Below are positions 25,105 through 28,740 of a stretch of 44,551 nt of DNA, one piece after another (the stretch's first letter is position 1; each line of letters starts with the position of its first letter). Under the pieces are notes generated by a model. It made no database searches and was not told the origin of the DNA. It saw nothing but the letters and a program-made list of their open reading frames with translations. The stretch is taken from contig PMKV01000129.1 of assembly GCA_003157875.1 (NCBI GenBank), forward strand, positions 740 through 45,290, read 5' to 3'. Source of the DNA: Chloroflexota bacterium. Its GTDB lineage: Bacteria; Chloroflexota; Limnocylindria; Limnocylindrales; CSP1-4. A program made the translations under genes and the position numbers.

Positions 25105-25866
25105 CTATGCCGCCGCCCGACTGAACGAACGCGCCCCGATGGCGATCGTCGCCACCGCCAGAACGATCAACAACACCACTCCAAGGACGATTTCGCCATC
25201 GCCAAAGCTGGCATTGAAGAGCGCCCGGATGGCGGCCACGGCGTGATAGAGCGGGTTGAACTTCGCCACCGTCTGCAGCCAGTCCGGGGCGAGCGACATC
25301 GGCAGCATCACGCCGGATAGAAGTAGCAGCGGCAACGAGATGCCGTTCACCACCGGCGCCAGCGAGTCCTCGCTCTTGAGAACCAGGGCCAGCGTGTAGG
25401 AGACCGGCGACATCATGATCCCGATCAGGGCCAGCATCAGGAACGCCACCGCCACGCCGCCGAGGTTGATCTCGAGCCCGAACGGGACCGCCAGTAGAAC
25501 CAGGATCAACCCCTGGGCCAGCAGCAGGACAACGTCCCGCATCGAGCGGCCGACGAGCATCGCCACGCGGCTCATCGGCGTCACGGTCATGCGCTCGACG
25601 ACGCCTTCGCGCAGCTCGTCGCACAGGCCGAAGCCCACGAAGGCGGAACCGAATAGCGCGGTCATGACCAGGAGCCCGGGCACGAAGACGTTGAAGGCGC
25701 CGCCGGGCGGGAAGCCGGGCATCTTCGCGATGTTCGTCAGCAACGGCCCAAACAGGAGGAGATATAGGATGGGCTGAAGGATGCCCATGATGACCCAGAC
25801 GGGATTTCGAAGGCTCAACACGAGCGATCGCTCGAAGATGAGCCAGGTGTCTCGGAATACTCGCAT
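25105..25866 (-). CDS. ABC-2 transporter permease, DrrB-like
   Basis: A 253-residue membrane protein with six helices. The N terminus (DTWLIFERSLVLSLRNPVWV) and the central REGVVERMTVTPMSRVAMLV block, followed by GRSMRDVVLLLAQGLILVLL, are typical of daunorubicin-type DrrB permeases. A Leu/Pro-rich NGISLPLLLLSGVMLPMSLA segment matches the conserved late helix. Seventeen bases separate it from the ATPase gene. Together they should export amphipathic compounds. Confidence 0.92.
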   Translation of the reverse strand: MRVFRDTWLIFERSLVLSLRNPVWVIMGILQPILYLLLFGPLLTNIAKMPGFPPGGAFNVFVPGLLVMTALFGSAFVGFGLCDELREGVVERMTVTPMSRVAMLVGRSMRDVVLLLAQGLILVLLAVPFGLEINLGGVAVAFLMLALIGIMMSPVSYTLALVLKSEDSLAPVVNGISLPLLLLSGVMLPMSLAPDWLQTVAKFNPLYHAVAAIRALFNASFGDGEIVLGVVLLIVLAVATIAIGARSFSRAAA

Positions 25867-25883: not shown

Positions 25884-26858
25884 CTAAGCGGCGCTTTCGC
25901 GCAGTGATCGACCGGTCTTCTTGAGGAAGACGTCGTCGAGGCTGGGTCGGTGGAGGTTCATCGTCGAGGGCGCCAGGCCCTTCGCGTCGAGCAGTCGAAG
26001 GACGGCCGGGACGGCCTCCTCGCCGCGGTCGACGAACAGGCGCACGAGCCCGTCCTCCATGCCGGCCTCACGGACGAACGGCTGGGCAGCGAGCAGCTTC
26101 ACGACCTCGTCGCCGTGACCGTTGACGCCGATCGTCAGGACGTCGCCGGAGATCTCGTGCTTGAGCTCCGTCGGCGACCCTTCGGCCACTATTCGGCTGT
26201 GGTCGATGATGGCCAGCCGATCGCACAACGCGTCGGCCTCCTCCAGGTAGTGGGTGGTGAGAAAGACCGTGGTGCCGGTCTCGCGGAGCTTGCGGATCTC
26301 CTCCCAGAGGCGGGCCCGGGCCTGCGGGTCCAGGCCGGTCGTGGGCTCGTCCAGAAAGAGCAGCGCCGGCCGGTGGACCATGCCGATGCCGATGTTGAGT
26401 CGCCGACGCATGCCGCCGGAGTAGGTCGCGCAGGTTCGATCGGCCGCCTCCGCCAGGTCGAGTGCCTCGAGGATCTCGACCGCCCGAACGCCCGCGTCCG
26501 CCTTGCTCATGCCGAAGAGGCGGCCCTGGATGACCAGTTCCTCGCGCCCGGTCGACTCGCGGTACGAACCGCCCGATTGCGCCACGTAGCCGATCCTCGT
26601 GCGGACCTCGCGTGCCTCGCGGGCCACGTCGAAACCGGCCACGCAGGCCGTCCCGGCGGTCGGCGGGAGCAGCGTGGCCAGAATGCGCAGGGTCGTGGTC
26701 TTACCGGCGCCGTTGGGCCCGAGAAAGCCGAAGATGTCGCCCGCGGCGACGCTGAGGTCCACCCCGGCGACCGCCTCGACGGTCCCGCCGCGGCCCTTGA
26801 AGGTTCGGCGTAGACCCACCGTCTCGATGACCGGCCCGGCGCCCGGCTGGGCGCTCAT
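25884..26858 (-). CDS. ABC transporter ATP-binding protein, DrrA-like
   Basis: A 324-residue ATPase. Walker A GPNGAGKTT (about 45-53), Q-loop in IGYVAQSGG, signature YSGGMRRRL, Walker B LLFLDEPTTGLD, H-loop TTHYLEEAD. The C-terminal domain (about 225-324), ending LDDVFLKKTGRSLRESA, is the regulatory DrrA-type tail (PF13732). It is the first gene of a two-gene exporter operon, divergent from the MarR-fusion gene 238 bases away; the shared gap holds a symmetric regulator site, so MarR control is likely. Confidence 0.95.
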   Translation of the reverse strand: MSAQPGAGPVIETVGLRRTFKGRGGTVEAVAGVDLSVAAGDIFGFLGPNGAGKTTTLRILATLLPPTAGTACVAGFDVAREAREVRTRIGYVAQSGGSYRESTGREELVIQGRLFGMSKADAGVRAVEILEALDLAEAADRTCATYSGGMRRRLNIGIGMVHRPALLFLDEPTTGLDPQARARLWEEIRKLRETGTTVFLTTHYLEEADALCDRLAIIDHSRIVAEGSPTELKHEISGDVLTIGVNGHGDEVVKLLAAQPFVREAGMEDGLVRLFVDRGEEAVPAVLRLLDAKGLAPSTMNLHRPSLDDVFLKKTGRSLRESAA

Positions 26859-27002
26859 CGCCCAACCAGACCGGAAGCCGCCGCCGCGGCGCGCGCGCCC
26901 GATCCCCCGATGTCAAACTTGCTCCCGGTGAGTTCCATCTGTCTTCCTTCTCATCGCTGGTGCAGTGCGCCGGCCCGCCGGATCTCCGCCGGCCGGGCTC
27001 TC

Positions 27003-27073
27003 CATAGCGCACTTGCTGGGCACGCCTATTGCACTGCTGAGTTGCTGCGCTATGATCTAGCTGCGCAGCGCAG
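27003..27073. promoter_or_regulatory. Divergent promoter region with symmetric MarR-type sites
   Basis: CATAGCGCA (27003-27011) and TGCGCTATG (27046-27054) form a perfect 9-bp inverted repeat 34 bp apart, each facing outward to one gene. The plus-strand promoter of the MarR-fusion gene is TTGCAC (27029-27034), 16 bp, TATGAT (27051-27056). CTGCGC and GCGCAG half-sites recur at 27045, 27061, 27063 and 27068, around the expected transcription start. Confidence 0.68.
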
Positions 27074-27096
27074 AGATTAGCCAGAGCAGGCGAAAG

Positions 27097-28230
27097 ATGT
27101 CAAGCGGTGTACCGAGAGACGGGTTGACGGCGAGGGTCGTCCTGGCGGGTCGCAAGGCCGCCGCCCAGTCGACGCTCTTCAGCCAGGCCGTGGCCGACCG
27201 CCTGGGACTCGCCGGCAGCGACGTCGATTGTCTCGACATCCTCATCGAGGAAGGCCGGCTCACGGTCGGAAGGCTGGCCGAGCTGACCGGCCTGACCACC
27301 GGATCGGCGACGCGGATGGTCGATCGCCTGGAGCAGGCCGGCTATGTGAGCCGCAGCCCCGATCCCGCCGACCGGCGCCGCGTTGTGGTGGCAGCGGTCC
27401 CGGAACGTCTGGCCGCGCTCTCGGCCCTTCACGATTCGCTCCGCGCCGCGCAGCGCGAAGCCGTGGCCGCGTACGACGACGATCAGCTCCAGGCCATCGC
27501 CAGCTTCCTCGAGAGCAGCATCGACGTCTTCCGCGACGAGGCCACCAGGCTGCGCGAGCCGCCCCCCGACGAGGCGCGATCGGGCGGCAGCTACGCGGCA
27601 CCCGTGGGCGGCGTGACGTCAGGCCGGCTGATCTTTCTGTCCGGCGCGCCGCGGATCACGGTGCGCGGCGACGCGACGCTTACGGAGTTGTGCCGGGCCG
27701 AATTCGCCGGACCCGTGCCCCGAATGCGGGTCCGCGGCGGGGTCGTGACCGTGGCCTATCCCCATTCCGGCTGGTTCGACTGGCGCGCCCAGGTCGCCGG
27801 CCAGGCGATCGTGGCGTCGGCCCACTGGCGCAAGGACGCGGGCGAGATCGTCCTGAACGCGACCGTTCCATGGTCCATCGAGCTGCGTGGCGGCGCCTCG
27901 AGCTGGAGCGCCGACCTCCGCAAGCTGAGACTCGAATCGTTCGAGCTTCGAGGTGGCGCCAACAAGGTCGAGCTGCTGCTGTCGCGGCCGGAAGGTGTGG
28001 TTCCGATCCGCATAAAGGGCGGTATCAGCCGCGTTTCCATCGAGCGGCCGGTCGGCGTGGCCTGCGGCCTGGAAGTTCGCGGCGGAGTCAGCGAGATCAG
28101 CGTCGACGGCGAGGGGTTCAAGGGAAGCGGCCCGCTCTCGATCCAGACGCCCGACGCTCTCGAGTCGCCCGATCGCTACGAGATCGAACTCGCGGGCGGG
28201 GCGACCAAGATGATCATCACGGCGCGCTAA
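27097..28230 (+). CDS. MarR regulator fused to a beta-repeat domain
   Basis: A 377-residue fusion. Residues about 1-150 are a MarR winged helix: LTVGRLAELTGLTTGSATRM is the recognition part, then VDRLEQAGYVSRSPDPADRR is the wing. A short linker follows (about 150-170). Residues about 175-377 hold seven beta units, each with a GG turn: ITVRGDATL, MRVRGGVVTV, IELRGGASS, FELRGGANKVEL, IRIKGGISRVSI, LEVRGGVSEISV, IELAGGATKMII. This resembles DUF4097 or bactofilin-like solenoid sheets; such a C-terminal part is unusual for MarR and could bind a polymer, membrane or ligand. Divergent from the DrrAB-type exporter, which it probably represses. Confidence 0.86.
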   Translation: MSSGVPRDGLTARVVLAGRKAAAQSTLFSQAVADRLGLAGSDVDCLDILIEEGRLTVGRLAELTGLTTGSATRMVDRLEQAGYVSRSPDPADRRRVVVAAVPERLAALSALHDSLRAAQREAVAAYDDDQLQAIASFLESSIDVFRDEATRLREPPPDEARSGGSYAAPVGGVTSGRLIFLSGAPRITVRGDATLTELCRAEFAGPVPRMRVRGGVVTVAYPHSGWFDWRAQVAGQAIVASAHWRKDAGEIVLNATVPWSIELRGGASSWSADLRKLRLESFELRGGANKVELLLSRPEGVVPIRIKGGISRVSIERPVGVACGLEVRGGVSEISVDGEGFKGSGPLSIQTPDALESPDRYEIELAGGATKMIITAR

Positions 28231-28236
28231 TCCGAC

Positions 28237-28326
28237 ATGGAGATGTTCCTGGCCGGCGCCTCGGCCGCGATCTTCGCCATCCTGGCGGTGAAGGTGTTCC
28301 TCGACGGGCTGGCGGTCGCCGCCTGA
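28237..28326 (+). CDS. Possible 29-residue membrane peptide
   Basis: Starts 6 bases after the MarR-fusion stop: MEMFLAGASAAIFAILAVKV followed by FLDGLAVAA. It has one hydrophobic segment that could span the membrane. No SD is visible, so it would rely on coupling to the upstream gene. It may instead be chance. Confidence 0.35.
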   Translation: MEMFLAGASAAIFAILAVKVFLDGLAVAA

Positions 28327-28341: not shown

Positions 28342-28740
28342 CTACTCCCCGGCTCGCTTCTGGAAATCGAGAGAGGCCGAGTTGATGCAGTAGCGCAGGC
28401 CTGTCGGTCGCGGCCCGTCGTCGAAGAGGTGGCCCAGGTGCGCGCCGCAGTTCGCGCACAGGACCTCGGTCCGGCGCATGCCGAGCGTGTTGTCCGGTCG
28501 GGTCACGACCCGGGCGCGGTCGGCGACGTCGTAGAAGCTCGGCCAGCCGCAGTGCGAGTCGTACTTCACGCCCGAGGCGAAGAGCGTCTCTCCGCACACG
28601 ATGCAGCGATACGAGCCGGCGTCGTGGTTGTCCCAGTAGGCACCGGTGAACGGGCGCTCGGTGGCGGCCTCCTGGGTCACGGAGAACTGGAGTGGCGTGA
28701 GCCGCTTGCGCAGGGCCTCGACGTTGACGTCGGCCTTCAT
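28342..28740 (-). CDS. msrB: Peptide-methionine (R)-S-oxide reductase
   Basis: A 132-residue MsrB. The zinc-binding CxxC pairs are YRCIVCGE (near 44-47) and VLCANCGAH (near 93-96). The active Cys is in the RYCINSASL block near the end, and the family blocks FSVTQEAATERPFTGAYWDN and SGVKYDSHCGWPSFYD are present. It repairs oxidised methionine R-sulfoxide in proteins using thioredoxin. The ATG overlaps the LLM oxidoreductase stop (ATGA), so the two are coupled. An unlinked MsrA lies at 38.5 kb. Confidence 0.96.
   Translation of the reverse strand: MKADVNVEALRKRLTPLQFSVTQEAATERPFTGAYWDNHDAGSYRCIVCGETLFASGVKYDSHCGWPSFYDVADRARVVTRPDNTLGMRRTEVLCANCGAHLGHLFDDGPRPTGLRYCINSASLDFQKRAGE

Follow-up and report, generated by a model that had tools for sequence, protein, structure and literature searches.

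A gene from a Chloroflexota bacterium encodes a MarR regulator and a Toastrack-type domain in one chain, and it is divergent from the genes of a DrrA-type ABC exporter. We analyzed it within a DNA stretch of 44,551 nucleotides, here called the window. The domain architecture is new, and its parts are known. The domain identities, the predicted operator and promoters, and the pairing with the exporter are supported by sequence comparison and structural models. We propose that the fusion would act as a one-component autorepressor of the DrrAB-type exporter.

The MarR-Toastrack fusion protein

The fusion gene lies at 27097 to 28230 on the plus strand, stop codon included, as judged from the open reading frame (ORF), its translation, and its relatives. 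It is a single ORF with no internal stops, and the product has 377 amino acids (aa). Pfam placed a MarR domain at residues 43 to 96 (E 1.7e-14, above the curated cut-off) and returned nothing for the C-terminal part. The MarR part is complete in the topology of an AF2 model that took 11 orthologues as input, from a helix at residues 7 to 36 to one at residues 128 to 153. VIA-align gave this part a Z score of 14.6 to 5ERI and 14.5 to 1LJ9. On the evidence of Pfam, AF2, and VIA-align, the domain spans residues 7 to 153 (27115 to 27555, plus strand) and has six helices and a wing. Its winged helix-turn-helix lies between N- and C-terminal dimerization helices, as in the MarR family.

Residues 154 to 170 (27556 to 27606, plus strand) form a flexible linker, with a pLDDT below 50 nearly throughout. 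The following 207 residues (171 to 377; 27607 to 28227, plus strand) are predicted to form a Toastrack-type beta-helix domain. Its seven (V/L/I)xG(G/D) turns are at residues 189, 212, 263, 284, 306, 327, and 365; the first unit is RGD and the last is AGG. The MarR match, the seven turns, and the single ORF bear out a sequence-only reading of this DNA, which had described a MarR protein fused to a seven-unit GG beta-repeat domain. No transmembrane-like stretch was found in the fusion protein, in which the top 19-residue Kyte-Doolittle mean is 1.0.

The domain contains a low-confidence aromatic and basic loop at residues 206 to 246 (27712 to 27834, plus strand), with the motif GWFDWRAQVAGQ...SAHWRK. 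The pLDDT is below 50 at these residues in the full model and at local residues 71 to 91 in a model of the domain alone. The loop is strongly kept among close orthologues, and W226, D228, R230, S241, H243, W244, and K246 are invariant in all 11 sequences. We regard this conserved but poorly modeled loop as a candidate contact surface.

Two independent routes led to the identity of the C-terminal domain. When residues 154 to 377 were modeled alone with AF2, the model had a pLDDT of 83.9 and a pTM of 0.83. Foldseek ranked 4QRK at the top of the PDB for this predicted model (E 1.8e-12, TM 0.76/0.80), followed in order by 3LYC, 3PET, 3LJY, and 4OPW, with 4YGU lower. VIA-align superimposed 202 residues on 4QRK at 2.9 Å (Z 21.8; model residues 7 to 224), and the alignment to 4OPW had a Z score of 9.4. 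A profile of 11 C-terminal domains, searched against PDB sequences, found 4qrk_A at E 4.7e-12, and the next match was at E 0.54. Because this profile match does not depend on the model, Toastrack was reached both by predicted structure and by profile. We conclude that the C-terminal domain is of the Toastrack type (DUF4097/2154/2807), as identified by sequence profile and predicted fold. The Toastrack domain unifies DUF4097, DUF2154, and DUF2807, with 4QRK and 4OPW as exemplars (PMC11237479). It is predicted to be intracellular, is a partner in Lia and Psp membrane-stress systems, and has been proposed to be an assembly module of sub-membrane complexes (PMC11237479).

Even at a threshold of E 10, Pfam matched nothing in the domain of the window protein, and the C-terminal domains of 10 relatives gave one chance-level match, to another family. 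The repeat domain therefore looks like an orphan because the Pfam models miss this version of Toastrack. The sequence-only reading had likened the repeats to DUF4097 or bactofilin sheets and had named structure prediction of the C-terminal part as a check. That reading would have failed had this part been disordered or lacking in all relatives; instead, the model shows it folded, and 44 or more fusions carry it. The DUF4097 likeness held by both fold and profile. The bactofilin likeness gained no support: there was no Pfam match, and no bactofilin was among the Foldseek and VIA-align matches listed, an absence that does not amount to exclusion.

The coordinates given in that reading end at 28326 and so take in a separate 29-aa ORF (28237 to 28326, plus strand). 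This hydrophobic ORF begins 6 bp past the fusion gene and resembles the two ends of a LysE-type exporter gene that has lost its middle. In one relative (L006), a whole LysE gene occupies this place, and the gene in another (L108) begins alike. By sequence, the ORF looks like what is left of such an exporter gene. On the opposite strand, a gene for methionine sulfoxide reductase B (SelR domain) follows (28342 to 28740, minus strand), and most close relatives also have this gene downstream of the fusion.

The predicted operator and face-to-face promoters

The intergenic regions of the clade, when aligned, had one conserved block, which adjoins the start codon. The core of this block is CTGCGCnGCGCAG, a perfect palindrome of CTGCGC and GCGCAG around a single A (27061 to 27073), and this intergenic comparison makes it the predicted operator. 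All 13 intergenic regions contain it with no more than one mismatch, and at most 1% of shuffles per region equaled that. Six held-out orthologues, which were retrieved afterwards and were not used in framing the operator and promoter idea, all contain it with zero to two mismatches.

A promoter for the MarR-Toastrack gene is predicted at 27029 to 27056 on the plus strand. It consists of TTGCAC, a 16-bp spacer, and TATGAT preceded by TGCGC, and its hexamers are conserved in the clade. The predicted promoter of the ABC operon (27074 to 27103, minus strand) has TTGACA over the MarR start codon, an 18-bp spacer, and TAATCT. The −10 hexamer is TATTCT in most relatives, 17 to 18 bp from TTGACA. An exact TTGACA was found in 12 of the 13 regions and in all six held-out orthologues, and its distance from the operator hardly varies; in the held-out set it lies 23 to 25 bp from the palindrome. 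In two of the held-out loci (L119 and L120), TTGACA is kept although it is off any ATG or GTG start, an argument for a conserved regulatory rather than coding role. With transcription taken to start about 7 bp beyond each −10 element, both predicted starts fall inside the operator, at 27063 (plus strand) and 27067 (minus strand). Therefore, CTGCGCnGCGCAG is predicted to cover the start sites of two overlapping promoters that face each other. A generic promoter scan of the gap called no promoter because both window promoters are below its threshold, and the comparison with relatives was needed to find them.

Outward-facing TGCGCTATG repeats in the gap had earlier been put forward as the likely target. 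The copies are at 27003 to 27011 (as CATAGCGCA) and at 27046 to 27054, and only the right copy is conserved. The repeat is made up of TGCGC and the beginning of the −10 box, and the right-copy variants TATGAT, TATACT, TACAAT, and TATAAT behave as such a box. We therefore rejected TGCGCTATG as an operator and read it mostly as a −10 element. A single phylum-wide operator was not found: members of the Ktedonobacteria type carry different palindromes, so the exact operator is clade specific. Upstream palindromes of the Ktedonobacteria-type fusions (among the L067 to L101 gaps) include several of the TATCTTnnnnnAAGATA type. These sequences hint that the operator may have drifted along with the MarR recognition helix.

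Distribution and partner genes

Ten relatives carry the fusion at 47 to 72% identity over nearly the full length (49 to 73% when aligned), and many more carry the whole fusion at 33 to 49% identity. We examined 44 fusions. By sequence comparison, the fusion occurs widely among Chloroflexota, and none was found beyond this phylum among the matches of one pattern-based scan of genome contigs. Of the 107 genomes in the window's own family, 19 carry the fusion, including 11 of the 21 genomes listed for the genus, so the distribution is patchy. The MarR and Toastrack halves of the 44 fusions diverge together (r 0.90, with 0 of 2,000 permutations as high), which co-inheritance also predicts. The tree of fusions needs four label changes, and its strongly supported branches are compatible with a single origin.

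The host is a metagenome-assembled Chloroflexota genome (G000) of 3.06 Mb that is 75% complete. It has four other MarR-like genes, with open frames of 181 to 248 aa, and an ABC ATPase-like match lies near one of these four loci. PspA is present in this genome.

Seven homologous repeat domains in the set are without MarR. In two cases (L065 and L066), a Toastrack gene stands alone immediately after genes for an ABC ATPase and a permease, and a third domain follows LiaI-LiaF-type membrane helices in one protein (L094). Together with a fusion to a TMEM175-type domain, they indicate that the domain goes along with exporters and membrane modules as well as with DNA-binding domains. In that TMEM175 case (L047, the same gene as L076), a Toastrack-type domain comes after a TMEM175-like potassium channel domain. 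A MalT/LuxR-type regulator is upstream of the ATPase-permease pair at L066.

In the window, the DrrA-type ABC ATPase gene is at 25884 to 26858 (minus strand; Pfam ABC_tran E 3.8e-27, DrrA1-3_C E 7.7e-10). The ABC-2 type permease gene alongside it is at 25105 to 25866 (minus strand; ABC2_membrane E 5e-31). The presence of both ABC_tran and the DrrA1-3 C-terminal domain next to such a permease marks a DrrA-type exporter, and the divergent ABC exporter noted from the letters alone is therefore real by Pfam. A divergent DrrA-like ABC ATPase adjoins 29 of the 44 fusions. For one of the 29 (L012), the contig holds only a piece of the ATPase gene, which was seen in the DNA and is absent from the blast table. 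The same neighbor was found in all six held-out orthologues.

Nine other fusions have a hydrolase of the beta-lactamase type, a glycosyltransferase, or an MFS pump as the divergent partner. Pfam identified the hydrolases at L078, L083, and L096 (the L078 gene has near-copies at L081 and L099), EryCIII-like glycosyltransferases at L073 and L075, and MFS pumps at L085 and L088. Four fusions have housekeeping-looking or unclear neighbors (L067, L068, L077, and L090); by eye, the L067 neighbor resembles a type III pantothenate kinase, and the gene before L090 seems rpoC-like. Such seemingly unrelated neighbors count against the mechanism proposed below. L015 and L080 are at contig edges. Judged by sequence family, the divergent partners look like a xenobiotic-defense set, with the export or inactivation of toxic compounds as the common theme.

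A leader ORF of 27 codons (26855 to 26938, minus strand) precedes the ATPase gene. It has the Shine-Dalgarno sequence GAAGGAAG, and its TGA overlaps the ATG of the ATPase gene (ATGA). All 10 close orthologues keep this layout, nine of them with 26 to 27 codons. The peptide begins M-x-(L/F/I)-T-(T/x)-x-x-F-D-I in most of them. Its conservation is modest, so the ORF may be a translational-coupling or attenuation leader.

Proposed mechanism, alternatives, and known systems

We suggest that a MarR dimer on CTGCGCnGCGCAG would silence both the exporter operon and the gene that encodes the regulator. A drug or a membrane-stress signal, read at least partly via the Toastrack domain, would then release the repressor. 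The cytoplasmic Toastrack domain on its flexible linker would make repression depend on the condition of the membrane or the exporter. As in Lia and Psp Toastrack proteins, by analogy, it would contact a partner near the membrane (stressed lipid, the exporter, or a further protein) or a drug that acts on membranes, and this contact would bring the repressor off the DNA. An autorepressor with a membrane or exporter signal coupled through Toastrack is the best explanation we can offer, and we put its chances at about even. From the MarR family, we infer that the protein would bind DNA, repress both promoters, and be released by an inducer. The role of the Toastrack domain as the sensing or tethering part is something we infer only by analogy. 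The sequence-only reading had raised a membrane- or polymer-sensing MarR, and the link of Toastrack to Lia and Psp systems makes a membrane-stress role plausible. Homologues without MarR lie behind exporters and behind LiaF-type helices, so the job of the domain appears tied to the membrane or exporter side. By the same analogy, the fusion suggests that the pump may be induced by membrane trouble rather than only by a drug molecule. More specifically, Toastrack could be a direct sensor or tether, within a one-component factor, for the inner membrane face or for the loaded exporter, a version that we rate as less likely than not. If true, a repressor, an envelope-stress sensor, and exporter control would be united in one polypeptide, and a kinase, an anti-sigma factor, or a PspA-like partner would be unneeded.

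MarR regulators divergent from exporters are a classical arrangement. The protein could thus be an ordinary drug-responsive MarR that binds its ligand in the classical pocket, with Toastrack adding only stability or oligomerization. The modeled MarR fold is complete, and the proposed role of Toastrack as an assembly module (PMC11237479) would fit an oligomerizing part. However, each intergenic region in the clade has a single conserved operator and so no second site to bridge, and the solo homologous domains behind exporters point to a role apart from DNA binding. We consider this a credible contender that is probably not the answer.

Alternatively, Toastrack itself might be a small-molecule or lipid receptor, whose repeat face or loop binds an amphipathic antibiotic or lipid in the cytosol and not at the membrane. 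The Trp-, Arg-, and His-rich loop at 206 to 246 is strongly conserved in close orthologues, drug-modifying enzyme families are among the partner genes, and the structural neighbor 3JX8 bears the deposited title of a putative lipid-binding protein. However, the loop has low confidence in the model and is shorter in other clades, and the titles of structural-genomics depositions are guesses. This receptor seems unlikely to us. We give next to no credence to a frame or assembly artifact, or to read-through into an unrelated gene. The window does come from a metagenome-assembled genome, but the same single ORF is found in more than 30 genomes, and conservation covers both halves, which diverge together. 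Read-through was rejected because relatives carry the same single ORF.

Several known systems are close to this one. MexR, MepR, and MarR are about 140 to 150 aa long, with no added domain. The fusion shares with them a complete MarR fold, a nearby efflux gene, and, as predicted here, a palindromic operator over promoters, and it differs by its added Toastrack domain. In the fusion, a Toastrack (DUF4097/LiaF-type) domain is joined to a DNA-binding part whose output can be read at one operator, and what such a domain senses can thus be tested with a reporter in a laboratory strain. This natural fusion, carried by a group of uncultured soil bacteria, gives reporter access to a domain that elsewhere belongs to membrane-stress systems of bacteria.

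With known Toastrack domains (LiaF and LiaG; 4QRK and 4OPW; PMC11237479), the domain shares its predicted fold, a profile relation to 4QRK, and a cytoplasmic location. The LiaI-LiaF-TM fusion L094 has the membrane-module link of known Toastrack proteins. In the architectures described earlier (PMC11237479), Toastrack comes after membrane helices or after PspC, SHOCT-like, or HAAS domains, whereas here it is joined directly to MarR. The word MarR is absent from the main text of that paper (PMC11237479), and the main texts searched gave no account of MarR joined directly to Toastrack. The exporter is like DrrAB-type exporters in pairing an ATPase that has a DrrA1-3 C-terminal domain with an ABC-2 permease, but it differs in having the 27-codon leader ORF, whose end overlaps the ATPase start codon. 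Among known arrangements, the Listeria LltR operon comes nearest; it encodes a PadR repressor, a DUF1700/HAAS protein, and a DUF4097 protein as separate chains (PMC6624303). Both systems combine a repressor and a DUF4097 (Toastrack-type) domain with a membrane protein within a single regulatory unit (PMC6624303). However, the Listeria unit has PadR and three proteins, whereas Chloroflexota have MarR and Toastrack in one chain.
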